This document shows positions 1 to 16,067 of a stretch of DNA of 16,612 nucleotides, in pieces; the stretch's first letter is position 1, and each line of letters starts with the position of its first letter. Position numbers and translations under genes: made by a program. The notes beneath the pieces were generated by a model. It saw only the letters and a program-made list of their open reading frames with translations. It did not search any database and was not told where the DNA came from. Origin of the DNA: Actinomycetota bacterium (GTDB lineage: Bacteria > Actinomycetota > Actinomycetes > Nanopelagicales > Nanopelagicaceae); the NCBI GenBank assembly GCA_009698975.1, contig WLPB01000003.1, positions 1 through 16,612 of the forward strand, read 5' to 3'.

Positions 1-25
1 CACTATTCCCAGCGCTGAAGCAACT

Positions 26-37
26 ATGACTAGTCAT
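26..37. promoter_or_regulatory. Perfect 12-bp palindrome upstream of the five-gene operon
   Basis: ATGACTAGTCAT is identical to its own reverse complement. It lies about 110 bp before the first start codon of the operon and upstream of its candidate promoter. It could be an operator for a dimeric regulator. It could also be chance, or part of the end of an upstream gene: two reading frames enter from the left edge and stop at 27-29 and 38-40. Nothing else in bases 1-25 can be identified. Confidence 0.3.
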
Positions 38-61
38 TGACTTATCTGACGCCTAGCCCAC

Positions 62-91
62 TTGTCGCGCTCAGGAAGCTCTCAGTACCCT
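62..91 (+). promoter_or_regulatory. Candidate promoter of the tubulin-like/VWA operon
   Basis: A -35-like TTGTCG at 62-67 is followed after 18 bp by a TANNNT -10 box, TACCCT, at 86-91. This would start transcription near base 98, leaving a leader of about 50 nt before the SD-preceded ATG at 149. The -35 match is weak. An alternative -35-like TTGACT at 37-42 has no good -10 partner. Confidence 0.35.
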
Positions 92-130
92 TGCAAAACG
101 CACGAAGGTCACAAATGCGACTTTGTTGAA

Positions 131-140
131 AGGGGAGGAG
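131..140 (+). promoter_or_regulatory. Strong ribosome binding site that fixes the start of the first gene
   Basis: AGGGGAGGAG is a near-ideal purine-rich Shine-Dalgarno sequence ending 8 bases before the ATG at 149. It argues against the upstream in-frame TTG at 62, which would add 29 residues of no recognisable character. Confidence 0.75.
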
Positions 141-148
141 AGCGCCAC

Positions 149-586
149 ATGAGCACCCTTCCTCCGCCTATTCCAGGCACGCCAAAGAGTGGCGGAGTAA
201 TGAAACCCCCACCGATTCCGAGTGGTTTCGGTGGAACAACAGCGACAACGAAGATACACGCAGAAGATTATGTGCGAGCTTCGATTCTTCCGCTCATCAT
301 CGCGCTCGTTGCAACAGTCGCAAGCTTATTTTTAACGCTGTTTTTCCGAAATATTTCTACCTGGGTTAACTTACTCGGATACCTACTTACTCCATTTCTC
401 GTCATAATTTGTGCGGGTCTAGATTCAGTTCAGCAACGACGTAAGGCGACCACGGATCTCTATTTCTTGGAAAACCGGAAGTATTCATTATTTTTGCGCG
501 CACTCTCTGCGCTCGCTCTACTGATTTCGATTCCTCACATTAATGGAATTGCAACAACTATTGCCGCATGGGTGGCGGATCTCTGA
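149..586 (+). CDS. Small three-TM membrane protein with PPPIP motifs
   Basis: Encodes 145 residues of a family I do not recognise. The N-terminal 40 residues are hydrophilic and proline-rich, with two PPPIP motifs (residues 5-9 and 20-24), each followed by a Gly-containing stretch. Three hydrophobic segments follow at about 44-66, 71-90 and 113-142. The loop at 91-112 carries QRRK and NRK positive clusters, which would place it in the cytoplasm. The start is set by the strong SD at 131-140. The stop overlaps the next ATG by one base (TGATG), so translation is probably coupled to the VWA gene. As first gene of the operon it is likely a membrane component of the tubulin-like system. The proline motifs resemble the polyproline tail of its neighbour, hinting at a shared binding partner; that is inference. 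Confidence 0.8.
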   Translation: MSTLPPPIPGTPKSGGVMKPPPIPSGFGGTTATTKIHAEDYVRASILPLIIALVATVASLFLTLFFRNISTWVNLLGYLLTPFLVIICAGLDSVQQRRKATTDLYFLENRKYSLFLRALSALALLISIPHINGIATTIAAWVADL

Positions 587-3216
587 TGAGTAAGCGTCTT
601 GCGGTTTACGCTTTCCTGGTTGCAATTTTTCTTTCAATATTTCCGTCTGTGAGCTCAGCCAGCAACCACGATGAATTATCAGATACCGGAAATCGCGCAT
701 TTGAAGATTTGACTCGATGCATCAGCACAAAGAAAGTGCTTGATGTTTACTACCTCATTGATCAATCTGGATCTCTCAAGCTTACGGATAAGAACGATGA
801 CCGCGCGGGGATTCTTGCTGGCAGCCTCAGCGCTCTAGGAGATTTCGAGAGTGATGTCACGGTTAACTATGCAGTGACATTCTTCGGTGATGGCGTCGAT
901 AACTGGGCCAAGTGGAGCGAAGTAAATCCCTCAACAATCGATTCAAAAGCTAACGCGCTCAGCGCAGAGATTAAGAAACCATCCCGCAAGAGCGATTTCA
1001 ACACGGATTGGCTGGCAGGACTAGAAAGAGCTCGGAGTGATCTTGAGGGCCAGAAGCGAATCTCAAATGGCTGTCAGGCTTTGATTTGGCTGACTGATGG
1101 CGGGATATGGCTACAGAACGGAAGCGGTTATTCAGCCCCCCATAACTTCAGTCAGGATCGTACTGATAATGCAGTGAATGAACTCTGTAACGATGTGATG
1201 CCTGCACTTCGACAGAACCAGGTTTCAGTTTTCGGTGTTCTGCTAAAAAATGATGCTCAGCTCGATCAGATGGATAGCACCAAGCGAGAAGAGACCGTCA
1301 ATGGAATGTCGCATATGTTCCCCTTGGTTGAAGGTTCTTTGGATAACGCATCAATAGATGGCATCCCACAAGATAATCGGACCTGCGGCGTCGTGCCAAT
1401 TCCAGCAAACCAATCTGCCGGCGCAGTGCTTATCGCAACAGATCCAGTATCACTTGCTCTGCAATTTATGGTTTTGACCGCTGCAACACAAGGTGGAAAT
1501 GAAGGCGCTCTTTCACCAGGTAATCCAACTCGCTTTACTATCGATAAAGGCGTTCGCAAGTTTCAATTGGTGAGTACAACACGCGAATGGACGCTAATTG
1601 GCCCAAGTGGTGAGAGCTATTCAGAAGGTTCTGCTGGTGTTGATGTTAGACGCGCTGGCCTAATTACCACAATTAAAGTTGAAGTTGGCGCACTAGAATT
1701 CGGCAAGTGGGAATTTGCTTTTGATAAGAACTCTAGGAATAAACTCTTTCTTTTCAGTGGATTAGATGTGCGCATCAATAGAAGTGGTTTTGTTGCTGGT
1801 GAAAATGGAACACTCTCAGGAAATATCATCACATCAAGTAAGATTCAAAAAGTGGATTTGTCTGCCTACAACCAAGCTCCTGTCACTATAAAAATCATTA
1901 AGAGTGATGGAAAACCTGAATCACTTGCTGAAGTTACTCCAACCAATGGCGGCAGATTTACTCTTGATAATTTCCGTCCGCTGCCAGGTGAAACGCAACT
2001 TGAGTTACGACTGACAATGCCGCTAACCACTACTGGCGGCACAGTGCTTAAGCCAATAAGCGTTACCGTGGTAATCGATATTCCCGATCGCAGTAATTAC
2101 CCAACCCTTGAGCAAGTCCCAGTAAAAATTGGTGATTTGGTTGAACTTAAAAGCGGTCAGGGAGAAATCAAAATAATTGGTCCATCTCAAGGAAGTGGTC
2201 GGGTTTGTTTTGAAACCGGCAACAACAATGGTGTGGAAACAACTTCTGACGAACTTAAAGATGATCGTAGATTTACCTACACAATCAAGGATCTTCCAGC
2301 AGATGGCTGTGTGGCAGTCGGTGAGAACGAACCGAAGTCACTGATAATTGAAGCCACCACAACTAAAACAGGGGAAGGCTCAGTCGAAGCAAATCTTCCG
2401 ATGACTTCGTACTCAGATTCCGACAACAATGCTTTCATCAAAGACGATGTCCCCGTTGAATTCAATACAACCGTGGAGAAAAAGCTAGAGTGGCTGATTA
2501 AGATTTTGCTTTACTTACTTGGTATTGCGCTTCCTTGGGCATTTAGCTACATCCAAAATCGAATCACTACAAAGATTGCCTTTGGTCCTAAGATCCAGCG
2601 AGCCACTTTGCCTGTTTTGATTCACTCGACCAAAGGCGTCACCGCTCCAGATGGCTCACCAATGTTGGTAAAGGGTGAGGACTTTAGGTTCATTCCTGAA
2701 CAAAGTGATACGAATTTCTATAAAGATCCAATTGGCGAAATGCGCGCGAAGACATCAATTAACGTACTTCGTGCGCCATGGTTTGAGGTTGCTGCAACGC
2801 CAGGACATCGCTTGGTAACCATGGTGCCTTCGACTTCAATGTTGCGTAAGCGTTTTGCAACCGGGCAGGTTGCGCCAATGAAGGGCAATATTGATACATT
2901 CTGGGCAATTCAGATTAAAGACGGAGATCTTCTCAACACCGCCTACGCAACTGCCATCCCAGGAACTCTCTTAATCTTTAAGCGAAATAAATTGTCGCAA
3001 CCTAATCAACATGTTGATGTTGTGATGAAAGCAGTTCAAACACCTGGAATTTGGGGAGCAATCTCAGCACTGCCAAAGTCTGTGACAGCGATTGTGTCAG
3101 GTGAAAAGCCACAGAAGAAAGGCGTAACACCGCCACCACCGCCACCGATTTCGGGAACTATCCCGCCACCGCCACCCCCGCCATCTGGGATGGTTCCACC
3201 ACCGCCCAAGTTTTAA
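586..3216 (+). CDS. Exported VWA-domain membrane protein with cytosolic polyproline tail
   Basis: Encodes 876 residues. Residues 1-25 form a signal peptide (KR, hydrophobic core, then a VSSA-type cleavage region). A VWA domain spans about 50-255 with a complete MIDAS metal site: D59-x-S61-x-S63 (DQSGS), T140 in FNTDW, and D171 in LTDG. A long beta-rich, Ig-like region follows to about 625. One TM helix lies at about 636-656, then a basic stop (QNR), a cytosolic domain of about 190 residues, and a tail of proline runs of 6, 7 and 4 separated by ISGTI and SGMV. The start was taken at the ATG overlapping the previous stop because the signal peptide begins there; an ATG at 568 would add six residues. 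The topology suggests an outside ligand- or surface-binding module linked to a cytosolic partner, plausibly the tubulin-like protein. VWA proteins are known neighbours of FtsZ-like membrane-remodelling genes. Confidence 0.88.
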   Translation: MSKRLAVYAFLVAIFLSIFPSVSSASNHDELSDTGNRAFEDLTRCISTKKVLDVYYLIDQSGSLKLTDKNDDRAGILAGSLSALGDFESDVTVNYAVTFFGDGVDNWAKWSEVNPSTIDSKANALSAEIKKPSRKSDFNTDWLAGLERARSDLEGQKRISNGCQALIWLTDGGIWLQNGSGYSAPHNFSQDRTDNAVNELCNDVMPALRQNQVSVFGVLLKNDAQLDQMDSTKREETVNGMSHMFPLVEGSLDNASIDGIPQDNRTCGVVPIPANQSAGAVLIATDPVSLALQFMVLTAATQGGNEGALSPGNPTRFTIDKGVRKFQLVSTTREWTLIGPSGESYSEGSAGVDVRRAGLITTIKVEVGALEFGKWEFAFDKNSRNKLFLFSGLDVRINRSGFVAGENGTLSGNIITSSKIQKVDLSAYNQAPVTIKIIKSDGKPESLAEVTPTNGGRFTLDNFRPLPGETQLELRLTMPLTTTGGTVLKPISVTVVIDIPDRSNYPTLEQVPVKIGDLVELKSGQGEIKIIGPSQGSGRVCFETGNNNGVETTSDELKDDRRFTYTIKDLPADGCVAVGENEPKSLIIEATTTKTGEGSVEANLPMTSYSDSDNNAFIKDDVPVEFNTTVEKKLEWLIKILLYLLGIALPWAFSYIQNRITTKIAFGPKIQRATLPVLIHSTKGVTAPDGSPMLVKGEDFRFIPEQSDTNFYKDPIGEMRAKTSINVLRAPWFEVAATPGHRLVTMVPSTSMLRKRFATGQVAPMKGNIDTFWAIQIKDGDLLNTAYATAIPGTLLIFKRNKLSQPNQHVDVVMKAVQTPGIWGAISALPKSVTAIVSGEKPQKKGVTPPPPPPISGTIPPPPPPPSGMVPPPPKF

Positions 3217-3263
3217 ATAATTGAATAGAAGTCAAATAAAGAAGTGAAAAAGCATCAAACTAC

Positions 3264-3270
3264 GAAGGAG
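3264..3270 (+). promoter_or_regulatory. Ribosome binding site for the tubulin-like gene
   Basis: GAAGGAG ends 5 bases before the ATG at 3276. The preceding 59-bp gap is AT-rich and holds no convincing promoter or terminator, so read-through from the VWA gene is likely. Confidence 0.65.
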
Positions 3271-3275
3271 AAGAA

Positions 3276-6200
3276 ATGTTACGTCCAGTGCTATTGGTAG
3301 GAGTCGGCGGTTCAGGTGGAAAGACCCTGCGCGCAGTACGACAAGCTCTCGATCTTCGCCTTCAGCAAGCAGGGTGGAAAGAAGAATGGCCGGCAGCGTG
3401 GCAATTTCTGCATGTTGATAGCCCGGTGACCCAGGATGGTGTGGAATTCCCTGCGCCATTTCTGCCGACCGAAGATTATGTCAACTTGGTTGCAACCGGA
3501 ACTTCATACACCGTGGCATATGGTGCTGCCATCAAGAATGTTAAAGACAAATTTTTAACAGAGACTGAGGCCTCACTTCCATCAAAATTCGAAGTGACTG
3601 TTCCGGTAGAGCTCGGTGCTGGCAAATATCGCGGCGTGGGTCGCACACTGATAGTGGCAAAAATGGCAGATGTAAAATTAGCCGCTTCGACAGCGATTGG
3701 CCGATTAACTTCTGACGGTGCTCTGTCGCAGTTAGCTGCAATCAATAGCTTGTTAGGCAATAAGGCGGGACAAACCTCTAAAGACCCTATTGTCATTGTT
3801 GTTTCATCAATCGCGGGCGGATCTGGTGCTGGACAGTACGTTGAGGTTACTGAAGCAATCAAAAATGCTGCCCCGACAGCTCAATGGGTGCATAGTATTT
3901 TTTCACTTCTTTACGCACCGGATGTCTTCAAGTCCGTCGGAGATCCTGATCTAATCGCGCCAAACTCACTTGGTGCGATGGCAGAAGCAATGTCAGGAAT
4001 GTGGTCAACTGATCTTGAAGACAGCACAAAAGATCTATATCAGGCTAAAGGAATCAATATTCCAGGGATAGGTGAAGATCCAAAGATTCATATTGGTCCT
4101 CGCTTCAACTTTGTAATTGGCCGTGAAAATAACACAATCGACTTTAAGGATCAGCCCGATGTGTACAAGGCGGTAGCGGCTAGTCTTTCAACTTGGATTA
4201 CCGACGATAGAGTTCAAGATAAGTTAATGGCATACAACGTGGCTAATTTCTCCGCCGGAGTTGGCGCCATGGTCCTACCTGATGCAACTGGGATTAAAGA
4301 TGAAGACCAAGCGCCACCGTTTGCATCTATGGGATTCGGACGAGTTTCTTTAGGTCGTGACAAATTTCTACAATACGCCGGTGAGCGCATTGCACGTTCG
4401 TCAATTGATCAAATGCTTTATGCCCACTCTGTTGGAGCTGACCACGATAAATTCCATATAGATGAGATTATCGATGCAAAGGCGAAGCAGAATTTTCCTG
4501 ATTTCCTTAGCGACATCCATCTTTCGCATAACAGTGACGAAACAAATGAGATTTTAATTGCAGTACGCCCTGCGCGTGAAGCAATTTTAGGTCGCTTTTA
4601 TAGTGAAATTTTCTCTGAAGCTCAAGAAGGAGTTTCTGCCCGAACTGGCGGTCAATCAGTGAATGCTTGGGGTGAAGCAATCACTGCTAAGTATCAAGTG
4701 AAAAGCGCACAAAATCCAAAGTCTTCTTTGATTCGTGAAGAGGAGATTGCTCGCTCGGCAAAGATGAAGGAATTTGTCGCTACCCAGAAGCAGAATATTC
4801 TGGCTGAAACCTCACGAGCTATTTCGCAGCTCGGTATAAAAGTTGCAGTCGAGATGCTCAAAATGCTTGAAGAGGACCTCACGACACATAGAGGCGAACT
4901 GTCGAAAAAGAGGAATCAATACCAAGGTTGGGCAAATAGCCACGCTGGCTCGATTGCGACGGCGCTTCAAGCAGTCCAAGGCCAAGAATCAGTAAGGGTG
5001 GATAACCCTGCAGTTTCCTCAGCAATTGAAATCGCTCGAAACTGCTTTTACTATCTCTTAGAGGCCGAGTTGCTAGCCACTACAGAGTCTCTCTTGGAAG
5101 ATATGGTGGCTAATTTCATTAGACCGCTTCGTGAACATCTATTCTCATCCGAGTCTGCACTCTTGAAAGTGATTGAAGTTTCATCGAGCGACAGTTCAAA
5201 GCAAAATCTATATGAGACTTGGCCGAAGATGGATCAAGATACGGTTCCGCTAAAGTTCAAAGCTGCGCCGAACGAATTCCTTCTGATAGAGACAAGTACT
5301 TATCCTGAAGAATTCGACACTCTAATTGCGCAATCGGTCGCCTTCAAAAGCCGCGATTATGCTTTTCGTGTAGTAATTGACGAAGTGCTGATGGGTAAAT
5401 TAGCCCTGGATGACTTGGAACCAGAATCTGCATGGCAACTCATCGATACAGCAAAGGAATGGATTCCACTCGATCGTGCTGCACGTATTGACGAGAGTCA
5501 ATCAAACCAACCAGCAAGATTCGAGTTCAGTGCATATCCGCAGGACTACCTCACTCGAGCAATGGCGTGGATGCAACGAAAAGGCTCTCAATTTTATAGA
5601 TATCTACATGAAGATATCGCTGGCTTCCTAGATGAAAAAATGGAAGACCGCGCGTTGTTGATTGAACGTCAACAAATTTTCAAGCGCCAGTTTAAAGATT
5701 CACTTCTAGCATCCGAACCTTTAGTGAAATTGAACTCTGCTCTCCTAATGCAGGTTCATAATCGCCAATTAGGTCAAGTCGACTCGGTTATGAGTACAGT
5801 TCCATTTGATAAAGGTTCTCAAGCATATGCAATCACTGAGGGAGTACTCAATGATCAAAAAATGTGGAATGGAGCAGCATCAGAAGGTCTTTTCAACTCT
5901 GCGGCAAAAGGAATCCAGAATATCGATGTATTCTCGGTGCAATCACCTTTCCAGCCAGTGGTTATGAATTCGATAGTTCAACCGATTTCAGAAGCTTGGT
6001 TAAAGCATCGTGCAGATTTAGAAACACGTAGAGATTTCATGAAGTGGCGTCGTGCGCGCCCACTCTTTGAAGCTGTTCCCGCCTCGCCTGCTAAAAAACG
6101 GGCAATGTTACGCGGATGGTATGTGGCTCGAATTCTTGGACAGCTTGATAACGAAAGCAATGAGCAGGATCTTGGTCCACACCTAAAAATATGGAATCCA

Positions 6201-6695
6201 CGGGAATCTTCCTATGATTCATTTCCTTATCCTCTGATGCACGGCGACGTGGTTGAGGCGGATAATTATCCAGGTGCAATCCTGCAATCTCTAAGCATCG
6301 CGCTTGTTATGTGTAACTCTGAAGGGTCTCTGGCACCGCTGGATGCTTATAAGCGACTCATGTACTTGGGAGATATAAAGAGTGGACAAAACTCAGAACT
6401 TCTTAGATGGATCATCGATGGAAAATTATCCGGTGGAACCCCTAAGACTCCTAATGAAGAACGTGCTGGAAGTGCTGGAACAGGCAAAGAATCACTTGAC
6501 GAAAGAAGAGAGAAAGTCCTTGCCCACATTGAAGAGCTCTCAAACGAGCTTCGCGATGAGGTTGAGAATCTTGACCATAAGAGAGATTCTCGAAATACGA
6601 CAGTCACATGGGAAATCAAGCATGAACTTCGTAGTGCTCTCTCTGAAATTCTAGAGGCAGCAACTAAGGCAGTCGCTAAGAAGAGCGGAATCTAA
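3276..6695 (+). CDS. Tubulin/FtsZ-like cytomotive protein (Tubulin_2-type)
   Basis: Encodes 1139 residues. The N-terminal third carries the loop order of a tubulin/FtsZ nucleotide-binding domain: T1 GVGGSGG (9-15); T2-like LHVDS (45-49); T3-like GAGKYRGVGR (114-123), very close to the FtsZ GAGANPEVGR loop; and the T4 signature AGGSGAGQ (180-187). A helix at about 293-310 (PDVYKAVAASLSTWIT) resembles FtsZ helix H7. SMGFGRVSLGRDK (351-363) resembles the start of the FtsZ second domain (MGxGxxxGxxR). The remaining roughly 750 residues are helical, with charged heptad-like stretches near 495-560 and 1075-1139. The length is about three times that of FtsZ, typical of the large tubulin-like family seen with VWA proteins. 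It is presumed to bind GTP and polymerise at the membrane; both are inferred. The next gene begins one base after its stop. Confidence 0.82.
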   Translation: MLRPVLLVGVGGSGGKTLRAVRQALDLRLQQAGWKEEWPAAWQFLHVDSPVTQDGVEFPAPFLPTEDYVNLVATGTSYTVAYGAAIKNVKDKFLTETEASLPSKFEVTVPVELGAGKYRGVGRTLIVAKMADVKLAASTAIGRLTSDGALSQLAAINSLLGNKAGQTSKDPIVIVVSSIAGGSGAGQYVEVTEAIKNAAPTAQWVHSIFSLLYAPDVFKSVGDPDLIAPNSLGAMAEAMSGMWSTDLEDSTKDLYQAKGINIPGIGEDPKIHIGPRFNFVIGRENNTIDFKDQPDVYKAVAASLSTWITDDRVQDKLMAYNVANFSAGVGAMVLPDATGIKDEDQAPPFASMGFGRVSLGRDKFLQYAGERIARSSIDQMLYAHSVGADHDKFHIDEIIDAKAKQNFPDFLSDIHLSHNSDETNEILIAVRPAREAILGRFYSEIFSEAQEGVSARTGGQSVNAWGEAITAKYQVKSAQNPKSSLIREEEIARSAKMKEFVATQKQNILAETSRAISQLGIKVAVEMLKMLEEDLTTHRGELSKKRNQYQGWANSHAGSIATALQAVQGQESVRVDNPAVSSAIEIARNCFYYLLEAELLATTESLLEDMVANFIRPLREHLFSSESALLKVIEVSSSDSSKQNLYETWPKMDQDTVPLKFKAAPNEFLLIETSTYPEEFDTLIAQSVAFKSRDYAFRVVIDEVLMGKLALDDLEPESAWQLIDTAKEWIPLDRAARIDESQSNQPARFEFSAYPQDYLTRAMAWMQRKGSQFYRYLHEDIAGFLDEKMEDRALLIERQQIFKRQFKDSLLASEPLVKLNSALLMQVHNRQLGQVDSVMSTVPFDKGSQAYAITEGVLNDQKMWNGAASEGLFNSAAKGIQNIDVFSVQSPFQPVVMNSIVQPISEAWLKHRADLETRRDFMKWRRARPLFEAVPASPAKKRAMLRGWYVARILGQLDNESNEQDLGPHLKIWNPRESSYDSFPYPLMHGDVVEADNYPGAILQSLSIALVMCNSEGSLAPLDAYKRLMYLGDIKSGQNSELLRWIIDGKLSGGTPKTPNEERAGSAGTGKESLDERREKVLAHIEELSNELRDEVENLDHKRDSRNTTVTWEIKHELRSALSEILEAATKAVAKKSGI

Positions 6696-6696
6696 A

Positions 6697-8244
6697 ATGG
6701 CGAATGAGAGTAAGCGCGACTCAATATCGGTCGTGCTCTTTCCCTCCGATGCACTTTATAAGGAATTCGCGCCTCTTATTCTCGAGTGGACCAAAGAGGG
6801 ATTATTGGGATCTTTTCTAGCAGTGACACCTTCAATGGTCGTACAAAAAGTTGACGAACCTCTTTCAATTTTTGTCGAGAAACTAGGTCTCAATGCAGAT
6901 GAAGATTTTGTGCCCTATTCTCTAGATGCATTTGACGAGCTCGCGCAACGTGAATACAGCGTTGTTCGTATCGTTGGTTTTCATATGCTTCGCACAGGTC
7001 ACAAAGTTGATGTGAAGCAGGGCAAGCTGTACGAGGAAGTGATGGATTACCTTGTTAAATCACTACCGATGGTTTCGGCAGGAACGGTTGAGGGACAAGA
7101 GGGAACTCGAGTACTGCGAATCAATCTTGTTGTCGCACCAACAAAACTCCACTCTGGCGGATTTGAGCCAGCATTTAATGGTCCATGGAACATGCATGTG
7201 ATTGCATCACCCGAAGATCGCCGAACACCATGGACGGCGGATAGCCTTGTAAGAGATGACGAAAAGTTCACTCGCTTTGGACTGATGCATTTGGCCACAA
7301 CTGCTGGCATTTGGAATGGCTTAAAAGTAAGCCCATTTGAATTAGTTAATTTTGAGGATGCCAAAAAGGGAAACTTCTGGCTCTCTCGCATATTTGTTAA
7401 TGCAATTCTCACTGATGGGCTCTCACGCCGTGTTGCAGCTAAGGTCGTTGATGGAATTTCAAGTTCGTCTACCGATATTTATGACTCAAAACTTGGCATT
7501 GCAATTCCAGGCACTGAACTTATTTCCGATGATTTAGTAGATCAATTCATCGAGGGAATGGTTGCCCAAGTGTTCAGTATTGAAGGCGGAGTCCTTGGCT
7601 TTTCTCGGCCCGCCCCAGATGCTCCACCGCCACAAGAGAGCTGGTATGAGTGGACTCAGATTAAATCTTTCTTGATATTCTCATGGGATAAACTCAAGGT
7701 GATTCCATGGTGGATGTGGGTTTTCATCCGTCGAGGAATCGGCCGAAAGATGACAGCAACTTTCCAAGGAAATGAAGGTTTGGCTCAAGTCGGAATCAAT
7801 CAAAATGATCCAATGGATTCCCGGGATCGAATTCTGGCTAATAAACTCGTTGATATTTTGAGCGTTCAATCTGCCGCTCGTAACTCATTGAGCGCACCGC
7901 TTCGCGGTAATTCAGCAAAGACAACGCCAAAGTTATGGGCAAGTATTCGCAGATTAGTCTTTGGAATGCTTGATGGCTCTGACCTTAATGAGTTTGGAAT
8001 CGAACCCAAGGAAGGCCGAGTTCCGGTCTTCGCTCGAACTGGTCAGATTATCGCAAACCCTGCTGAGACTGTTTCGGTCCCAGAAATTCTCCATGCACGG
8101 TTAGGAGCGAGTGAAATTAGATTGGCAGAGGCCAGTGGTTCAGGTGCAATGGCGCGCAAATTGAGTGAAGGTGTCACCGCAACAAGAAGACGTATTGAAA
8201 CAATCGAAAATGAATTAGCGCAGATGCAGGGGGGAAATTTCTGA
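6697..8244 (+). CDS. Conserved-operon protein of unknown function
   Basis: Encodes 515 residues with no family I recognise. There is no signal peptide and no P-loop, so it is not a GTPase of the classical kind. The N-terminus (about 10-160) looks like an alpha/beta domain with strands such as ISVVLFP, YSVVRIVGF and RVLRINLVVAP. A proline-rich linker (RPAPDAPPPQES) near 303-314 leads into an aromatic stretch of about 316-346 ending KVIPWWMWVFIRR, which could be an amphipathic membrane-associating helix or a marginal TM segment. The last 50 residues are charged and probably helical or coiled-coil. It starts one base after the tubulin-like stop and shares one base with the next gene, so it is almost certainly co-expressed and probably part of the same complex. 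A cytosolic adaptor or filament regulator is possible, but that is inference from position only. Confidence 0.72.
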   Translation: MANESKRDSISVVLFPSDALYKEFAPLILEWTKEGLLGSFLAVTPSMVVQKVDEPLSIFVEKLGLNADEDFVPYSLDAFDELAQREYSVVRIVGFHMLRTGHKVDVKQGKLYEEVMDYLVKSLPMVSAGTVEGQEGTRVLRINLVVAPTKLHSGGFEPAFNGPWNMHVIASPEDRRTPWTADSLVRDDEKFTRFGLMHLATTAGIWNGLKVSPFELVNFEDAKKGNFWLSRIFVNAILTDGLSRRVAAKVVDGISSSSTDIYDSKLGIAIPGTELISDDLVDQFIEGMVAQVFSIEGGVLGFSRPAPDAPPPQESWYEWTQIKSFLIFSWDKLKVIPWWMWVFIRRGIGRKMTATFQGNEGLAQVGINQNDPMDSRDRILANKLVDILSVQSAARNSLSAPLRGNSAKTTPKLWASIRRLVFGMLDGSDLNEFGIEPKEGRVPVFARTGQIIANPAETVSVPEILHARLGASEIRLAEASGSGAMARKLSEGVTATRRRIETIENELAQMQGGNF

Positions 8245-9911
8245 TGTCTAGCGGATTTTGTATCAACGGTCACGAAATTGGTGCCGAGTTTAAATACTGT
8301 GTTATTTGTGGTCAAGAGCGACCTGGCGCAACAGAAGCGGCGGCTGCGGCTCCATCCGATCATCTGGTGATTACAGTCGATGAAATTGAAGCACTAGGAA
8401 ACCTAGAGACTGTCACAAGCTCTATTGGTTATCTTGAGCCTCCAACCGAGGTGGCGCCAGAGGCCAACTCGCAATCTAGTTACGAGAGGCGCATGCAGCT
8501 AGATAAAGCGCGCGATGAAGCCTACGAGGAAGTTGCAGCGCTAGAGAATCTGCAGCAAAGCGTGGCTGAGTGGGAGCAGAGAAACAATCATTCATTCCTT
8601 GCGAAGACTTCTGCGGTGATGCAAAGAAATATTGCAGAAGCAGATGGATTGCTCACGCAATACAACAGAACTGTTGAGTCTCTTACTATTCCTCTGGCTG
8701 GCACTATGGGGAAGCTTCGTAAGAGTTTTCACCGCAAACTGACATGGCAGACATTCCTTATTCCACTGATTTCCTTCCTGATTTATAAGATTCCACGAAT
8801 TCCTAATCGAAATGTTCAGAGATTCTTTGGCAATGTCCAACCATCGATGAAGGTGATTTTGATATATGCGATTGTCATCTACTCAGTCTTGCTAGTAGGC
8901 GCACTTATCGCCTACTACAGGGGATGGAGCACTTATCAAAGAAAAGTTATAACGACTTTATGGCAACTTCAAGTTGTTTCGCGAAACGTGGAGCAGGTAC
9001 GAAGCGAGCAGAGTCGACTGAAAAGTCTCTACCCTCAGGTCAACGAATGGCTTGTGATTCTCGGACACTCACTGACAAATCCATGGCGCATTCGAAAAGA
9101 ATGGTTTGAATCTTCTATTGGCGACCTCAATGAAGCATCGCTGCCTAACTCACTTCGAATTTCGCAAGCGCATGAGGGTGATGGGCCTGCCATGATAGGA
9201 ATGCAACGCTATGCTGCCGAGAGATTTATGTCGCGCGGTTGGCGTGCAAAGGTCTTTGCAGATCAAGTTGATGTCATTCGAGAATCTCTGGGTTTCCCTA
9301 AGGATCGACTCAATGTGGAAACGCTGGATAAAGATATCTTGTACTCACCAAATGGCCCCCGTGCTTTGATTCGTACAAACATTGAAGAACAATCAATTCT
9401 CGAAAGCATCGGTCGGCGCCAGCTTCTACCGCTGATAAAAGAGGTTCAGAGAGAGGCGATTACGAAGTCTCGCCCTCCAGTAAATGAAATTCGAAAAAAG
9501 GAAATTTTGACCGATCGACCCGAGGCAGGGGATGACGAAGATACAGATATGACGCCTTGGGATGAATTCCTTTCCTTTGCAGTTCCTATTCAAGGAAAAC
9601 CGAAAACACCACTGAGCGTCTTCTCGCTCTCTGATTCAGGCAAAATGGCTGACCATCAATCTCGTTATAAGACTTTTATGATTGTTCCAGAGCGTTTTAA
9701 AGAGAAGGTGCACGGCGTTGACGACCGCCAACTCCATACCTATGCAGAGACATCCAAACTTCCAATGGATGTCGTCGTGAGAGCTGACTTCACCGGGCCA
9801 ATCCCCGCACAAGACTTACTCTTTTTGGAAAAAATTGTTTCCAAAGCACCTGCAAGTGAAGATGAGCCAGGTCCAAGCCCCAAGAAGTTCGATAAAGGCA
9901 AGGGAATCTAG
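8244..9911 (+). CDS. Zinc-ribbon, coiled-coil, two-TM protein
   Basis: Encodes 555 residues. The N-terminus carries a putative zinc ribbon with C6, H10, C19 and C22 (CxxGH ... YCxxCG), similar to small ribbons found with signalling or scaffold domains. An Ala-rich acidic linker follows, then a charged coiled-coil stretch at about 78-147. Two hydrophobic segments at about 168-183 and 202-225, separated by a short basic loop, form a TM hairpin that leaves both ends on the same, probably cytosolic, side. The C-terminal 325 residues are soluble and of unknown fold, with an acidic DDEDTD patch near residues 426-431. The ATG shares one base with the preceding stop (TGATG) and follows a GGGGGG run acting as SD. 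It is the last gene of the operon; the stop lies 2 bp from the convergent hydrolase stop. A membrane scaffold for the tubulin-like system is a plausible role. Confidence 0.75.
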   Translation: MSSGFCINGHEIGAEFKYCVICGQERPGATEAAAAAPSDHLVITVDEIEALGNLETVTSSIGYLEPPTEVAPEANSQSSYERRMQLDKARDEAYEEVAALENLQQSVAEWEQRNNHSFLAKTSAVMQRNIAEADGLLTQYNRTVESLTIPLAGTMGKLRKSFHRKLTWQTFLIPLISFLIYKIPRIPNRNVQRFFGNVQPSMKVILIYAIVIYSVLLVGALIAYYRGWSTYQRKVITTLWQLQVVSRNVEQVRSEQSRLKSLYPQVNEWLVILGHSLTNPWRIRKEWFESSIGDLNEASLPNSLRISQAHEGDGPAMIGMQRYAAERFMSRGWRAKVFADQVDVIRESLGFPKDRLNVETLDKDILYSPNGPRALIRTNIEEQSILESIGRRQLLPLIKEVQREAITKSRPPVNEIRKKEILTDRPEAGDDEDTDMTPWDEFLSFAVPIQGKPKTPLSVFSLSDSGKMADHQSRYKTFMIVPERFKEKVHGVDDRQLHTYAETSKLPMDVVVRADFTGPIPAQDLLFLEKIVSKAPASEDEPGPSPKKFDKGKGI

Positions 9912-9921
9912 TCTTAGATTC
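9904..9921. terminator. Small inverted repeat spanning both convergent stop codons
   Basis: GAATCTA, GTCT, TAGATTC forms a perfect 7-bp inverted repeat with a 4-base loop exactly across the two facing stop codons (9909-9911 plus, 9914-9916 minus). It could act as a weak bidirectional transcript end, but it is AT-rich and lacks a U-tract. It may only reflect that both genes end in Ile-stop codons. Confidence 0.25.
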
Positions 9922-10711
9922 GGGCGGTCTTCTTAATAAAGTTCACGGTTAAGTCGGGGTAGTTCCACATGATTACGTGTGCGCAATTATCAACGACAAT
10001 CCAATCTGAGTGATCGGGTGCAACGTTTCTGTGCTGCGCGATTTCCTCTGGCAGGGTCAAGTCGTAATCTCCGAAAACTATTGAGACATTTACATTTTCA
10101 GGGATTGTTGAATCGAATTTGCGTCCGCGTAGCCCATTCCATAACGGCATATATCCCTTTGAATTAGCCATTGCCATGACAGAGTCGCGGCAGGATTCAA
10201 AGCTGAGCTCGCGCCAGAGGTGAGTAATTTTCTTGTAACCAATCGCCTTGAGTGGAGGCAGGTGATAGGCAATACGCATAAAGTATTGAGTAACTTTTGC
10301 CAATAGCCGAGCATCAAAGAAACTTGGCGGAAGTTTCGACACTGGGCCTTCATGCCATAGCCCAGCAGGCGCCAGAGCTGTAACGCTCTTTACTTTATCC
10401 GGTGCGATTGCTCCCATTTCGAGAGCAATCCAACCGCCAAGAGAATTTCCCGCCACATGCATCTCTGTTACATCATGGGTGGTCGAAACTTCTTCGACAA
10501 TTGCCCGCGCAAGTGATTCTGGATCGACCGCTTCATTTTCGTGCAGCCCTGCAAGGCCATGTCCCGGAAGGTCAACGGCGAAGACTGAGAAATCTTTTGT
10601 GAGTTGAGGAATAAGACTCTTCCAAATACTGCCTGCCGAACCTAGGCCATGAACCAAGACCAGGGCAGGGCGCTTGATATCTTCGGTAAAAAGGTGCGCA
10701 GAAATCGGCAT
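9914..10711 (-). CDS. Alpha/beta-hydrolase fold protein
   Basis: Encodes 265 residues from the ATG at 10711 (MPISAHLF). The fold is clear: oxyanion region VHGLGSAG (20-27), DLPGHG (47-52), nucleophile elbow GNSLGG with Ser90, acid loop FGDYD (probable Asp217) and a C-terminal catalytic His245 in CAHVIMW. The length is normal for a single-domain hydrolase of the MhpC/esterase type. The substrate cannot be told. I chose 10711 because a TAGGGT -10 box lies five bases upstream, giving a leaderless start, and because the family normally begins near here. An ATG at 10729 (271 residues) or 10861 (315 residues) is possible, but the latter would overlap msrB by over 130 bp. Convergent with the zinc-ribbon gene, 2 bp apart. 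Confidence 0.85.
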   Translation of the reverse strand: MPISAHLFTEDIKRPALVLVHGLGSAGSIWKSLIPQLTKDFSVFAVDLPGHGLAGLHENEAVDPESLARAIVEEVSTTHDVTEMHVAGNSLGGWIALEMGAIAPDKVKSVTALAPAGLWHEGPVSKLPPSFFDARLLAKVTQYFMRIAYHLPPLKAIGYKKITHLWRELSFESCRDSVMAMANSKGYMPLWNGLRGRKFDSTIPENVNVSIVFGDYDLTLPEEIAQHRNVAPDHSDWIVVDNCAHVIMWNYPDLTVNFIKKTARI

Positions 10712-10727
10712 GCGATACCCTAGCGCC
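10712..10727. promoter_or_regulatory. Bidirectional leaderless promoter between the hydrolase and msrB
   Basis: The 16 bp between the two start codons read GCGATACCCTAGCGCC. On the plus strand TACCCT (10716-10721) lies 6 bp before the msrB ATG. On the minus strand TAGGGT (10722-10717) lies 5 bp before the hydrolase ATG. Each matches the actinobacterial TANNNT -10 at the distance expected if transcription begins at the start codon, and no SD is visible for either gene. Confidence 0.55.
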
Positions 10728-11141
10728 ATGTCAGAGATTTCGAACCCTGCAAACCTAGATGAGGCTGCTCTCAAGTCCTCCCTTGATTCACTTTCATACG
10801 AAGTCCTTCGCAACGGTGCTACCGAGCGTCCCTTTACCGGTGAATACACCGATAGCGACAAGGTTGGCTCTTATCGCTGCAAGGCCTGCGGAAATGAGCT
10901 CTTTAAATCTGAGACAAAGTTTCACTCAGGATGCGGATGGCCATCTTTCTATGCCCCGACTGCCGATGATTCAGTTACGTTGATTGAAGATCGCTCACTG
11001 GCACCACGCATCCGCACTGAGGTGCGATGCGGCAAGTGCGATTCCCACCTAGGCCATGTATTCGAGGGCGAGGGCTACGACGTTCCTACGGACCAGCGCT
11101 GGTGCATCAACTCAGTCTCACTCATTCTCGAAGAGAAGTAA
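10728..11141 (+). CDS. msrB: Peptide-methionine (R)-S-oxide reductase
   Basis: Encodes 137 residues, a full-length MsrB that reduces the R-epimer of methionine sulfoxide in proteins in the cytosol, normally using thioredoxin. Structural zinc cysteines are C51/C54 (CKAC) and C101/C104 (CGKC). The SGCGWPSFY motif at 68-75 contains C69, the likely resolving cysteine. HLGHVF lies at 108-113, and RWCINS contains the catalytic C126. The start at 10728 fits the usual MsrB length and the TACCCT box six bases upstream; there is no SD, suggesting a leaderless mRNA. An in-frame ATG at 10674 would lie inside the hydrolase and add 18 residues. It sits directly before a reactive-sulfur operon, a redox-repair neighbourhood, but is separated from it by a promoter and operator. 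Confidence 0.95.
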   Translation: MSEISNPANLDEAALKSSLDSLSYEVLRNGATERPFTGEYTDSDKVGSYRCKACGNELFKSETKFHSGCGWPSFYAPTADDSVTLIEDRSLAPRIRTEVRCGKCDSHLGHVFEGEGYDVPTDQRWCINSVSLILEEK

Positions 11142-11177
11142 TCGGGTAAGAACAACTCCTCTCACTCTACTATCTTC

Positions 11178-11208
11178 TGCTATGATTCTTGCATACCCCC
11201 TAGGGTAT
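11178..11208 (+). promoter_or_regulatory. Extended -10 promoter with CsoR/CstR-type operator
   Basis: TGCTATGAT at 11178-11186 is an extended -10 element (TGn plus TATGAT); no good -35 is seen. The predicted start site near 11193 falls on ATACCCCCTAGGGTAT (11193-11208), an inverted repeat of ATACCC and GGGTAT around CCTA. GC-tract palindromes flanked by TA are the known operator type of CsoR/CstR repressors. The downstream gene at 11359 encodes such a repressor, so autoregulation is likely. Confidence 0.75.
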
Positions 11209-11238
11209 ATGGAAATCTAGTGAAGAAGAGGATTAAAA

Positions 11239-11352
11239 ATGTGTTCAAGAGTTACTTGTGATCGTTGCAAGAAGTACACCTGGTCAGGTTGTGGCGAGCA
11301 TGTCACTGAAGCTCTCCAAGGCTTATCTGACGATCAGATTTGTAAGTGCTAG
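11239..11352 (+). CDS. 37-residue Cys-rich probable metal-binding protein
   Basis: Encodes MCSRVTCDRC... with cysteines at 2, 7, 10, 18, 35 and 37 and a histidine at 21. The core is CxxC-x3-TWSGCGxH, which looks like a tiny zinc or thiol domain. It is preceded by GAAGAGG as SD and lies 30 bp after the predicted operator, so it is the first product of the sulfur-stress operon. It aligns without gaps to the 55-residue protein at 13703, with 18 of 37 positions identical. I recall similar short TWSGCG proteins annotated only as hypothetical. Its role is unknown; a thiol or persulfide carrier, or a metal site serving the rhodanese/CoADR pathway, is inferred from context. Confidence 0.8.
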   Translation: MCSRVTCDRCKKYTWSGCGEHVTEALQGLSDDQICKC

Positions 11353-11358
11353 ATAACA

Positions 11359-11643
11359 ATGGCTAAGTCACCCACACATGTGTTGCAAGATGAAGCACAG
11401 GTAGAAGCAATCACTAAACGATTGAAGCGAGCCCATGGCCAAATGGGCGCGATTGTCCGCATGATCGAAGAAGGCCGGAATTGCGAAGAGATTGTGACGC
11501 AGATGGCGGCAGTAAATAAGGCGGTCACCACAGCCGCTTTCACCTTGATCTCTTCCAGTTTGAAGGAATGTATTGAGGAAAACAGAAATAACAGCGAAGA
11601 AGTACAAGAGAAGCTTCAGAAGCTGTTCTTGAGCCTTGCCTAA
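11359..11643 (+). CDS. CsoR-family repressor, CstR-like persulfide sensor
   Basis: Encodes 94 residues of the DUF156 (CsoR/RcnR/CstR) all-helical repressor family. Helix 1 carries the typical RLKRAHGQMGAIVRMIEEG. The sensing cysteines are C42 and C71, 29 apart, as in both CsoR and CstR. The residue aligned to the copper-ligand His of CsoR (the H in DEHLSHC) is Ser (SSSLKEC), as in CstR, where the two cysteines form di- or polysulfide crosslinks rather than bind Cu(I). Neighbouring rhodanese and CoA-disulfide reductase genes support persulfide sensing. The operator at 11193-11208 is its likely target. No clear SD precedes the ATG, which lies 6 bases after the previous stop, so expression may depend on coupling to the 37-residue gene. 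Confidence 0.9.
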   Translation: MAKSPTHVLQDEAQVEAITKRLKRAHGQMGAIVRMIEEGRNCEEIVTQMAAVNKAVTTAAFTLISSSLKECIEENRNNSEEVQEKLQKLFLSLA

Positions 11644-11657
11644 CAAAGGAAACGAAA

Positions 11658-12041
11658 ATGAAGAAACTAATTGCCATCTTGCTAGCTACAACTTTTGCCC
11701 TTACGGCATGCGGAGGTTCAGCTTCAGCTGACCTGAGCGCGACAGACTTCCAAGCTAAGTCACAAGAGCCAGGCGTAATTCTTCTGGACGTGCGTACAGC
11801 AGGGGAATTCGCTGCCGGTCATATTGAAGGCGCAATCAACATTGATGTCGAGGGCATGACTTTTGAAAATGAAATTAAGTCACTTGATCCGTCGAAAGCT
11901 TATGCAATTTATTGCCAGAGCGGACGCCGATCTCGTATTGCCGTCGAAACCATGACCGAGGGTGGCTTCACAAAGCTCTTTAATCTCGATCAGGGAATCG
12001 CTAGTTGGACAAATGCTGGTCTGCCAGTGGTGACTCTGTAA
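11658..12041 (+). CDS. Rhodanese-domain lipoprotein
   Basis: Encodes 127 residues. The N-terminus is a lipoprotein signal peptide (MKKL, hydrophobic core, lipobox LTAC) with the lipidated cysteine at 18. The mature protein is a single rhodanese domain: ILLDVRTAGEF at 41-51, GHIEGAINI at 54-62, and active-site loop CQSGRRS with catalytic C86. It would sit on the outer face of the cytoplasmic membrane and accept or transfer sulfane sulfur there. AAAGGAAA upstream serves as SD. Its stop shares one base with the next ATG (TAATG), so it is translationally coupled to the CoA-disulfide reductase-like enzyme. Together they resemble the rhodanese and reductase parts of CstR-controlled sulfide-detoxification operons. 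Confidence 0.9.
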   Translation: MKKLIAILLATTFALTACGGSASADLSATDFQAKSQEPGVILLDVRTAGEFAAGHIEGAINIDVEGMTFENEIKSLDPSKAYAIYCQSGRRSRIAVETMTEGGFTKLFNLDQGIASWTNAGLPVVTL

Positions 12042-13669
12042 TGCGAATAGTTATTATCGGGGGAGTCGCTGGCGGCATGTCAGCGGCAACCCGCATGCGT
12101 CGCCTTGATGCCGACGCTGAGATTATCGTCTTTGAAAAGAGCGGGCATGTGAGTTATGCCAATTGCGGCCTTCCATACTTTGTTGGGGGAATCATTGAAG
12201 AAGAGGATGCACTCTTGTTGCAGACTCCTGATTCACTGCATGCACGTTTTCGCCTAGATGTTCGCATCTCTTCTGAGGTCCTATCGATTGATCCGCTCGC
12301 AAAGTCAATCAAGGTAAAGAATTGGGCAGATAACACTGAGAGTGAGCTCACCTATGACAAGCTAATTCTTAGTCCAGGTGCTTCACCAATCGTCCCGCCG
12401 ATTCCTGGAATCGAACGGGCGATGACTCTGCGCACCGTTGAAGATGTTGAGCAGATCGCATTTGCGGTAAATAAGACTCCCGAAAGCGCTGTTGTAATCG
12501 GCGGTGGCTTTATCGGTGTAGAGATTGCGGAAAATCTCATTCATAAGGGCATCCCAACAACTGTTGTAGAAGCTGCGCCACAGGTACTTGCTCCACTAGA
12601 TCCCGAGATGGCAACTTTCGTTGCTCGAGAGATGCGCACACACGGAGTGAACTTGCACCTGGGTGTAAGTGCAACCGAAGTTACAGCCGATAGCGTAATT
12701 CTCTCCGATGGAACTGTTCTAGACGCAGAGATTGTCATCATGGCAATCGGTGTCAGGCCAGATACATCACTCGCAAAAGCTGCAGGCCTATCAATAGGTT
12801 CGCGCGGTGGAATTGAAGTAGATGATTTCAATCGCACGAGCAATCTCGATATCTATGCAGTGGGCGATGCGGCCGAGAAGACTGATGCACTTGATGGTTC
12901 AGCAACTCTTGTTCCGCTAGCTAATTTAGCAAACCGTCATGGACGAGTTGTAGCTGACCATATTGCTGGCAGAGAAGTTCGCCCCATGAAAACAATTGGA
13001 ACAGCAATTGTGAAGGTCTTTGATTTGATGATTGCAGCGACTGGATGGAATGAAAAGAGACTTATCGCAGCCGGTCGCCCCCATATGGTCATTCATACCC
13101 ATCCGAATAATCATGCTGGCTACTATCCAGATGCAAAACAGATTGCCCTTAAATTGATCTTTGATCCAACAACTGGCGAGATTCTGGGCGCACAAGGTGT
13201 GGGTCTTGATGGAGTCGATAAACGCATCGATGTCGTTGCAACTGCAATTCGTGGCGGAATCACCGCTCCTGAACTTGCAGATCTCGAACTCGCATATGCA
13301 CCACCATTTGGATCAGCAAAGGATCCGGTCAATATGCTCGGCTATATCGCCGAAAATATGATGAGCGGACTTCTAAAGACAGCGCAATGGAATCAAACTC
13401 AGCAACTTCGAGAAGCTGGCTACCAGTTAATCGATGTTCGTTCTCCAAGTGAATACAGCCGAGGAACAATTCCGGGAGCTATCAATATTCCGGTCGATGA
13501 AATTCGAGATCGGACCTCAGAAATTACCGCTTCACCAATTCTTGTTAATTGCCAGGTCGGACAACGCGGACACACAGCAACCATGTTGCTCACAGAGCTT
13601 GGATTTAACGCAACAAATCTCGATGGTGGATATCTGACGTATTCAAATTCACCAGCAGCAGTTCACTGA
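12041..13669 (+). CDS. CoA-disulfide (persulfide) reductase with C-terminal rhodanese domain
   Basis: Encodes 542 residues from the ATG overlapping the rhodanese stop. FAD-binding GGVAGG lies at 7-12. The SYANCGLPYF motif carries the redox cysteine C42 typical of CoA-disulfide reductase, NADH oxidase and Npsr enzymes. The NAD(P)-binding VVIGGGFIGVE lies at about 151-161, the second FAD motif IYAVGDAAE near 280, and the dimerisation domain follows. From about residue 454 a complete rhodanese domain is fused (LIDVRSPSEY; active-site NCQVGQRG with C504). Such CoADR-RHD proteins reduce CoA persulfide, CoA disulfide or polysulfide with NAD(P)H, the rhodanese cysteine presenting sulfane sulfur to the reductase site. 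An earlier ATG at 12005 lies inside the upstream gene and would add 12 residues before the nucleotide-binding strand, so it is unlikely. Confidence 0.93.
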   Translation: MRIVIIGGVAGGMSAATRMRRLDADAEIIVFEKSGHVSYANCGLPYFVGGIIEEEDALLLQTPDSLHARFRLDVRISSEVLSIDPLAKSIKVKNWADNTESELTYDKLILSPGASPIVPPIPGIERAMTLRTVEDVEQIAFAVNKTPESAVVIGGGFIGVEIAENLIHKGIPTTVVEAAPQVLAPLDPEMATFVAREMRTHGVNLHLGVSATEVTADSVILSDGTVLDAEIVIMAIGVRPDTSLAKAAGLSIGSRGGIEVDDFNRTSNLDIYAVGDAAEKTDALDGSATLVPLANLANRHGRVVADHIAGREVRPMKTIGTAIVKVFDLMIAATGWNEKRLIAAGRPHMVIHTHPNNHAGYYPDAKQIALKLIFDPTTGEILGAQGVGLDGVDKRIDVVATAIRGGITAPELADLELAYAPPFGSAKDPVNMLGYIAENMMSGLLKTAQWNQTQQLREAGYQLIDVRSPSEYSRGTIPGAINIPVDEIRDRTSEITASPILVNCQVGQRGHTATMLLTELGFNATNLDGGYLTYSNSPAAVH

Positions 13670-13702
13670 TTACGATCTATAGAGATAAGAAAAGAGAAGA
13701 AA

Positions 13703-13870
13703 ATGTGCCACAAGACAACATGTCGGAAGTGCAATAAGCCAACCTGGTCAGGATGCGGAAACCATATTGAGATTGCTCTCAAAGGTGTTCCAAAATCACA
13801 GCGCTGCCAAGGTCATCAGAACGAACCTAAAGAACCAGGTCTGCTTTCTCGTCTATTTGGCAAGAAATAA
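13703..13870 (+). CDS. 55-residue Cys-rich protein, paralogue of the 37-residue protein
   Basis: Encodes MCHKTTCRKC... with cysteines at 2, 7, 10, 18 and 35 and a histidine at 21, the same positions as in the 37-residue protein at 11239. The shared core is CxxC-x3-TWSGCGxH followed by AL-x-G. A 20-residue tail (NEPKEP then GLLSRLFGKK) ends in an amphipathic basic stretch that could touch membrane or nucleic acid. AAGAGAAG serves as SD, 33 bp after the reductase stop, and there is no terminator between, so it is probably the last gene of the sulfur operon. Function unknown; a zinc or thiol site is inferred from the Cys/His pattern. Confidence 0.82.
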   Translation: MCHKTTCRKCNKPTWSGCGNHIEIALKGVPKSQRCQGHQNEPKEPGLLSRLFGKK

Positions 13871-13900
13871 CCCTGCCAAGAGCCTCTCGCCTCATCAATT

Positions 13901-13928
13901 TTTACTTTCAGGGTCTGCCCTTTAGACT
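13901..13928 (+). promoter_or_regulatory. Probable tRNA promoter
   Basis: TTTACT (13901-13906), a 16-bp spacer and TAGACT (13923-13928) form a -35/-10 pair whose start site near 13935 lies about 8 bases before tRNA-Thr. It probably drives both tRNAs and may feed rpmG. Confidence 0.5.
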
Positions 13929-13942
13929 GCATCCTCTACCAC

Positions 13943-14015
13943 GCCCCCCTAGCTCAGTCGGTAGAGTGTTTCCATGGTAAGGAAAAGGTCACCGGTTCGA
14001 TTCCGGTGGGGGGCT
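13943..14015 (+). tRNA. tRNA-Thr (anticodon GGT)
   Basis: The full cloverleaf is visible: acceptor GCCCCCC/GGGGGGC (13943-13949 with 14008-14014), D arm GCTC/GAGT, anticodon stem TTTCC/GGAAA with loop ATGGTAA (anticodon GGT), T arm ACCGG/CCGGT with loop TTCGATT, and discriminator T at 14015. CCA is not encoded. Confidence 0.95.
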
Positions 14016-14051
14016 CGCAAGTCGTAAGTGAACAATTAAATAAGTAAGTAA

Positions 14052-14125: not shown

Positions 14126-14180
14126 CGAGTAAGTCGAAAAGATCAAGCGTGAATTGCGCTCGATTTCACCAAAAGAGTGA

Positions 14181-16061: not shown

Positions 16062-16067
16062 GTATCC

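Follow-up and report, generated by a model that had tools for sequence, protein, structure and literature searches.

Co-varying C-termini of a tubulin-like protein and its membrane partner in an actinobacterial VWA operon

A 16,612-nucleotide stretch of DNA from an actinobacterium of the Nanopelagicaceae (GenBank assembly GCA_009698975.1, contig WLPB01000003.1, positions 1 to 16,612; hereafter the window) holds at positions 149-9911, on the + strand, five co-directional genes, which encode in order orf1, a VWA protein, a tubulin-like protein of the FtsZ-like 1 family, orf4 and orf5. The tubulin-like protein and orf5 have no detectable homology to each other (pairwise E 0.32), and they often end alike within a locus, with ends that co-vary between lineages. 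As far as the searched literature goes, this co-variation is the new point of the present analysis. It suggests that the tails of the tubulin-like protein and of its membrane partner are probably read by one common docking site.

Matching C-termini of the tubulin-like protein and orf5

The proteins and tails in question are the following, where TM stands for transmembrane.

3276..6695, + strand: tubulin-like protein (Tubulin_2 / FtsZ-like 1), 1139 residues (PF13809)
6681..6692, + strand: C-terminal tetrapeptide KSGI of the tubulin-like protein, which co-varies with the orf5 C-terminus
8244..9911, + strand: orf5, with a zinc-ribbon-like N-terminus, a TM hairpin and a predicted cytosolic C-terminal domain (PF13240 in homologues; charge pattern)
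9897..9908, + strand: C-terminal tetrapeptide GKGI of orf5, its last two residues GI common to the tubulin-like protein

The likeness between the tubulin-like protein and its partner, which is orf5 or a fusion of orf4 and orf5, was first noticed by eye. The two proteins end with SGI/SGI in locus L001, EREFL/DREFL in L022, DDGD/DEGD in L028, EPLL/EPLL in L034, TGIL/TGIL in L038, EDRLS/EDRLS in L043, EDDD/EDDD in L050 and KSGI/GKGI in the window. In a first test on the last five residues, similarity was 13.06 within loci versus 1.36 after permutation (0/5000; 44 loci in 16 clusters, with L009, L014, L015, L016 and L025 left out as split or frameshifted calls). For a second test, 39 more regions were fetched, a few of which repeat earlier loci, and a shift of one residue was allowed. 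It was restricted to tubulin-like open reading frames (ORFs) of more than 900 residues with E < 1e-100; 16 loci with a cut gene or no partner and five identical ones were removed and doubtful gene calls were kept, which gave 80 loci in 39 clusters. Clusters of the tail tests were made at 50% identity. Similarity of the last four residues was 8.59 versus 0.83 after permutation (sd 0.67, z 11.6, 0/10,000). The match fades inward, with z 3.2 at positions -5 to -8 (11/10,000) and z 0.4 at -9 to -12, and five other protein pairs gave z between -1.3 and 1.8 at their last four residues. The last residue is the same in 62% of comparisons within loci versus 9.6% between loci. In strict register z was 12.8, and 22 of the 39 clusters lay above the 95th percentile of mismatched pairs.

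The match is found in both halves of the sample, that is, in 26 clusters without and in 13 clusters with a GAP1 gene next to the operon (0/10,000 each). The 13 GAP1-bearing clusters were fetched after the idea had been written down, and they gave 6.65 versus 1.16. Within single loci, the partner resembled the tubulin-like tail better than every other gene did in 15 of 24 GAP1-free clusters (2.0 expected) and in 8 of 11 GAP1-bearing ones (1.2 expected). For the window, KSGI/GKGI scored 8, whereas none of nine other window genes scored above 2. When one locus per cluster was taken, codons agreed at 28 of 58 identical tail residues, with 25.5 expected. Since this agreement is no more than codon usage predicts, the likeness lies at the protein level and is not copied DNA. 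A further 11 loci (ten GAP1-bearing and one from Nonomuraea; L173, with no partner by the fixed rule, and L181, which is cut, were left out) gave 1.64 versus -1.76 (sd 1.25, 45/10,000), which is a weak replication.

Operon, products and distribution

A preliminary description of this DNA had listed the five co-directional genes with their coordinates and junction sizes. All of these are borne out, and the operon is real. By sequence inspection the junctions are, in order, a 1-base overlap, 59 bases, 1 base and a 1-base overlap. For the VWA gene, the most likely start is the ATG at 586, which overlaps the orf1 stop by one base, and not the opening of the longer frame at 568. A GGAGG stretch lies upstream of the orf1 start. 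The remaining features are as follows.

149..586, + strand: orf1, small protein with three TM segments and a Pro-rich N-terminus, predicted N-in/C-out (hydrophobic segments; charge pattern, 63 proteins)
586..3216, + strand: exported VWA protein with predicted signal peptide, extracellular VWA domain, TM segment, cytosolic part and Pro-rich tail (weak PF00092; topology)
760..774, + strand: metal ion-dependent adhesion site (MIDAS) motif DQSGS (DxSxS in 50/50 aligned sequences)
2485..2541, + strand: TM segment of the VWA protein, residues 640-658 counted from 568 (hydropathy)
3124..3213, + strand: Pro-rich tail of the VWA protein, predicted cytosolic (proline fraction)
3300..3326, + strand: T1-like glycine loop GVGGSGGKT, invariant in 32 aligned sequences
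3813..3833, + strand: T4-like glycine loop AGGSGAG, invariant or nearly so, paired with FtsZ GGGTGTG in a non-significant profile comparison
6697..8244, + strand: orf4, soluble, with no known domain and in most relatives fused to orf5 (no library match; fusion counts)
8259..8309, + strand: zinc-ribbon-like Cys/His cluster C6, H10, C19, C22 of orf5 (sequence; CxxC...CxxC in homologues P0228 and P0230)
8853..8909, + strand: main TM segment of orf5, residues 204-222 (hydropathy)

The preliminary description had taken the product of 3276-6695 to be tubulin/FtsZ-like, and this is supported by a match to PF13809 with E 8.5e-32 and 111.2 bits (curated cut-off 27), which spans profile positions 1-355 of 356. 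The canonical FtsZ/tubulin family PF00091 gave no match in the protein at E up to 1. After the PF13809 match come about 760 residues, a long C-terminal region typical of FtsZ-like 1 proteins. The 32 aligned sequences were chosen among the 120 of 211 matches listed, and the others are 36-82% identical to the window protein. GVGGSGGKT we take to be the T1 loop in FtsZ terms. The exact FtsZ-like 1 loop GGGTG(S/T)G is not present in the protein, and the variant AGGSGAG is found. Searches of solved structures with the tubulin-like sequence and with profiles of the tubulin-like protein, orf4 and orf5 gave no credible match. FtsZ itself, as a PF00091 protein, is present in five of six genomes that carry the system.

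The VWA protein begins with a stretch that resembles a signal peptide; its MIDAS motif is intact, and a single TM segment is seen. Its VWA domain matches PF00092 weakly (E 0.053); PF13519 is above cut-off in the homologues of L028, L049 and L051 and below it in that of L034. Along with DxSxS, T146 and D177 (numbering from the ATG at 568) are invariant in all 50 aligned sequences, as are C51, C169 and C207, and C273 and C581 are found in 98%. The flank after the TM segment carries more positive charges than the one before it in 53 of 74 proteins and fewer in 6, which supports a cytosolic tail. The last 80 residues have a mean proline fraction of 0.24 versus 0.06 elsewhere (50 sequences). Motifs of the form [DN]P[FW] occur 35 times over 78 VWA tails (2.5 expected), 8 times in partner C-termini (2.0 expected) and 6 times in orf1 N-termini (0.9 expected), all counts being uncorrected for kinship. 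They are repeated, for example, in the VWA tails of L036, L038, L043, L081, L106, L124 and L125, and in our view they resemble the NPF/DPF motifs of eukaryotic endocytosis. It is possible that these motifs or the Pro runs make up a second docking set. In the operons of L134 and L138, a small protein with five TM segments ends like the VWA protein (DDW/DDW and DFW/DSW), perhaps a second tail pair. The VWA protein of L051 (7226-9994) ends with LPDFLRDED, a sequence similar to the FtsZ C-terminal peptide (DIPDFLK in L059). In orf1, three hydrophobic segments are seen and the charges of 63 proteins support N-in. A likeness of its N-terminus to the VWA tail, hinted at by eye, was rejected because it does not exceed what composition gives (59 loci, mean z 0.17, 7 of them above 1.64).

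The product types given in the preliminary description hold for orf1 with its three TM segments, the VWA protein, the PF13809 protein and the unrecognised orf4, whereas the zinc ribbon and two TM segments of orf5 are weaker than had been stated. The Cys/His cluster is a Cys-x3-His ... Cys-x2-Cys variant without a Pfam match of its own, and only residues 204-222 pass the hydropathy threshold in the window protein; most relatives have a TM pair. PF13240 is recorded for two orf5 homologues, P0228 and P0230, among the 25 matches listed, and Cys-x2-Cys is missing from orf5 of L049 and L050. A hairpin with both ends inside fits the charge pattern of 68 of the 78 proteins with a TM pair; 2 more have no pair. 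The name of one orf5 homologue refers to a freshwater metagenome. To speak of two unrecognised partners was incomplete: orf4 and orf5 have no Pfam or NCBIfam match up to E = 1, but in 34 of 40 relatives a single ORF spans both, and in 6 they are separate ORFs. No PHROGs or PADLOC match was found for orf4, and the idea that orf4 or orf5 is a hidden tubulin, VWA or GAP1 protein was rejected for lack of any match. In L076, the orf4-type protein (3590-6838, - strand) has a trypsin-like domain that follows the TM region (residues 799-936); its end nevertheless resembles that of the tubulin-like protein of L076 (NDLI for the tubulin-like protein, DPLI for the orf4-type one).

Conservation of the neighbourhood had been named in the preliminary description as a check, and the set does stay together across relatives. 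With the 32-sequence alignment as query, a scan covering one genome per species found 56 loci; a first scan with the single tubulin-like sequence found none. In 39 of the 41 loci that extend at least 4.2 kb to either side of the tubulin-like gene, all four partners keep the same order around it, more than chance would give, as judged with partner profiles iterated on these same loci. The exceptions are L037, in which orf1 and VWA lie between two tubulin-like genes on one strand (4945-12822), and L044, in which orf1 was missed by the profile. Tree distances of the VWA, tubulin-like and orf4 proteins correlate with r 0.89-0.93 (44 sequences), as expected of a unit inherited together, with species history contributing. 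The tubulin-like protein of the window falls on a supported branch with those of L050 (Candidatus Planktophila, Nanopelagicales) and L049 at 37-38% identity, and the flanking DNA of the window reaches 78% identity with genomes that belong to the same family as the genome of L050. Together with the freshwater name of one orf5 homologue, this makes a freshwater actinobacterium of the same kind the probable source of the window. PF13809 was found in 10 of 296 genomes. Profile A1 matched in 4 of 201, 21 of 396, 17 of 296 (five weak and partial), 23 of 293 and 13 of 92 genomes, a patchy distribution in sets that overlap partly, that include some partial matches and that each contain a centre genome chosen as carrier.

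L018 and L026, contigs of one metagenome-assembled genome (prefix CANBWO), carry two separate copies of the system with different tails. L012 and L034, titled Planococcus and Luminiphilus, carry actinobacterial-type copies and are probably misassigned contigs. A phage, plasmid or virus origin was considered and rejected, with no match in phage records, none confirmed in viral contigs and two distant matches in Rhodococcus megaplasmids. Downstream of the operon, a convergent alpha/beta-hydrolase gene occupies 9914-10861, followed by MsrB, rhodanese, redox-enzyme, tRNA, MaoC-like, glycosyltransferase and MurB genes (MsrB and MurB named from sequence reading). The stretch 9914-11141 beside msrB varies between relatives; in L096 it holds transporter-like and dehydrogenase-like genes, again named from sequence. 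In L049 (16671-17942) and L050 (9960-11219), the two closest relatives on the tree, the operon is followed by a convergent AAA+ gene with AAA_lid_6, which is not found in the window.

A proposed tethered assembly and other explanations

We lean slightly towards a membrane-tethered assembly, in which the FtsZ-like 1 tubulin homologue and orf4/orf5 would dock at one receptor site and be coupled to the VWA domain outside. Judged from its sequence, the tubulin-like protein is soluble, and by charge pattern its C-terminus and that of orf5 are both predicted to be cytosolic. If two unrelated cytosolic tails drift together, the simplest reader is a component of the system itself that drifts with them, and the tails of the tubulin-like protein and orf4/orf5 may be ligands of one receptor site inside the system. 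The orf4/orf5 protein would then dock where the tubulin-like protein docks, most simply on the tubulin-like protein itself or on the cytosolic part of the VWA protein. Such shared docking would anchor a predicted GTP-binding assembly at the membrane. Outside the cell, the VWA domain could bind a ligand in a metal-dependent way, and this binding could be coupled through the VWA tail to assembly or release inside; the system may act as an accessory response to envelope stress or conflict.

Several points weigh against this proposal. PF13809 is the one match that carries the tubulin assignment. Two profile comparisons with FtsZ were run, neither of them significant, and only the second, with 35 FtsZ sequences (probability 2%, pairwise E 0.021), pairs the glycine loops. 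It sets AGGSGAG against GGGTGTG and an upstream LGAGxxRxVGR against FtsZ LGAGADPEVGR, which in FtsZ terms are the T4 and T3 loops. As for the tails, 17 of the 39 clusters do not exceed the mismatched 95th percentile in strict register; some of these may have wrong gene calls, but L111, L123, L018 and L033 look like plain mismatches. The window tails agree in register at the last two residues only. In the replication set, only 2 of 11 loci exceed the 95th percentile and two Rhodococcus loci disagree outright. Moreover, a single subclade (65-81% identical to L135) supplies five of these 11, and the permutation was therefore not over independent loci. Among the controls, the tubulin-like protein versus orf1 at -5 to -8 gave z 2.0, the largest control value, and orf5 versus VWA at -11 to -15 gave 146/5000. 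Finally, column covariation identified no receptor, the signal being at the permutation threshold only (100 permutations, crude phylogenetic control; L009, L015, L016, L108, L113 and L115 left out). Six tubulin-like columns and one partner column were at or just above this threshold, with the strongest in the tubulin-like protein, which is a hint.

A tethered assembly of this kind is compatible with another explanation, which concerns physiology and which we consider possible though rather unlikely. The operon may be a conflict (defence-like) system, related to the GAP1-N2 tubulin systems of Kaur et al. but free of GAP1, with assembly triggered by a signal from an invader or from the envelope. 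Indeed, GAP1-N2, in part with GAP1-M, gave Pfam matches in all four sister-clade loci scanned, and GAP1 was found in 23 loci by a local profile. In these relatives a run of VWA, tubulin and orf4/5-type genes, which in some loci includes a recognised orf1, precedes an unnamed protein and then GAP1-N2. GAP1-bearing and GAP1-free members are split by a branch with support 100 in an unrooted FastTree tree, which corresponds to one state change, either a gain or a loss of GAP1. The nearest sampled sister clade of the window's clade carries GAP1-N2, and the window's own branch is without it. Judged by its genes, the window operon is a GAP1-free branch of an already described kind of system. The patchy distribution given above also fits a conflict system, and Kaur et al. 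class such neighbourhoods as conflict systems in the passages concerned (PMC7159879). However, in these passages their proposal rests on genome comparison, and the window gave no GAP1 match and no PADLOC match. A DO-GTPase was not found there either, with a weak probe (a profile from one weak Pfam match in L074, E 0.02, which matches only L074). The lack of a relative in phage records, or of a confirmed one in viral contigs, also speaks against this explanation.

A membrane-remodelling machine, in which tubulin-like filaments deform the membrane, was proposed for the family in 2010 by Makarova and Koonin, and we regard it as improbable for this operon. Membership in the FtsZ-like 1 family and the membrane-linked partners agree with it. 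On the other hand, according to the main text portion of that paper the T6-H7 elements, which are linked to filament formation, could not be confidently identified in the family, and a reviewer favoured transport or signalling over remodelling (PMC2875224).

It seems a little less probable still that the shared endings serve as degradation tags or as sites of modification, recognised by an enzyme that is not part of the operon. Peptides at the C-terminus often act as degrons, and the tail effect is strongest at the last residue. However, the tags differ widely between lineages (SGI, EPLL, EDRLS, REFL, EDDD), so that a housekeeping protease would hardly follow them, and the ends of VWA and orf1 do not share them. 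That the match is a statistical artefact of related genomes or composition is very improbable: the pattern was tested partly on the loci in which it was seen, clusters at 50% identity still share history and the later replication is weaker, but the controls on other proteins and other positions gave null or near-null values, the GAP1-bearing clusters fetched after the idea was noted give 0/10,000 and the comparison with other genes of the same locus holds.

Relation to described systems

The preliminary description had linked the operon to the FtsZ-like proteins with VWA partners of Makarova and Koonin, and the PF13809 match and the VWA gene bear this out. In the main text portion of their paper, an FtsZ-like 1 family with a vWA partner and an actinobacterial clade is described, and a reviewer names vWA genes of Corynebacterium and Micromonospora (PMC2875224). 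Tubulin_2 is equated with this family in passages of another source (PMC9871819). The window operon shares with those operons the family, the vWA partner, membrane-linked and lineage-specific partners and the actinobacterial clade. It differs from them in that no P-loop GTPase, kinase or OmpA gene was found among the 12 window proteins scanned, as the preliminary description had already noted for GTPase and OmpA partners; such partners are common in the family, not obligatory. The view that it is a new, actinobacterial version does not stand, since PMC2875224 already has the actinobacterial clade and actinobacterial systems of tubulin and membrane vWA protein are among the GAP1-N2 conflict systems of Kaur et al. 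(PMC7159879). According to passages of the latter, published in 2020, about 52% of GAP1-N2 neighbourhoods in these GAP1-N2/DO-GTPase conflict systems are centred on tubulin. The window operon resembles them in its tubulin with a C-terminal extension and its membrane vWA protein, and the GAP1-N2-bearing sister operons retain VWA, tubulin-like and orf4/5-type genes related to those of the window. Unlike in those systems, no GAP1, DO-GTPase or extra protein was found next to the tubulin-like gene in members of the window's clade. The main text portion of PMC2875224 makes no mention of C-terminal matching, nor is a C-terminal code described for GAP1-N2 systems in passages of PMC7159879. A literature search of titles and abstracts found, among the matches listed, no experiment on the FtsZ-like 1 family and no shared C-termini in it.

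In the parts of the literature cited here, the FtsZ-like 1 family, known since 2010, is described from genome comparison only. A four-residue tail that co-varies between two unrelated proteins would be a cheap and specific handle on who binds whom. The closest parallel is the -EEY/CAP-Gly code of eukaryotes, in which CLIP-170, a CAP-Gly protein, reads the -EEY end of both alpha-tubulin and EB1, according to passages of PMC3303835. As in that code, a tubulin and an associated protein end alike; unlike in it, the bacterial tails vary by lineage, and no CAP-Gly match was seen in a Pfam scan of the window proteins, so that the relation would be one of analogy and not of homology. Tentatively, and with less confidence than we have in the tethered assembly itself, the tails may be seen as a private, lineage-specific C-terminal address, which is read by one receptor of the system, drifts as a unit and insulates systems from one another, as an independent counterpart of the -EEY tails. 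If this is true, the labelling of a tubulin homologue and its partner with a common C-terminal peptide evolved more than once, and the tails provide a sequence-only route to the receptor and partners of the FtsZ-like 1 family.

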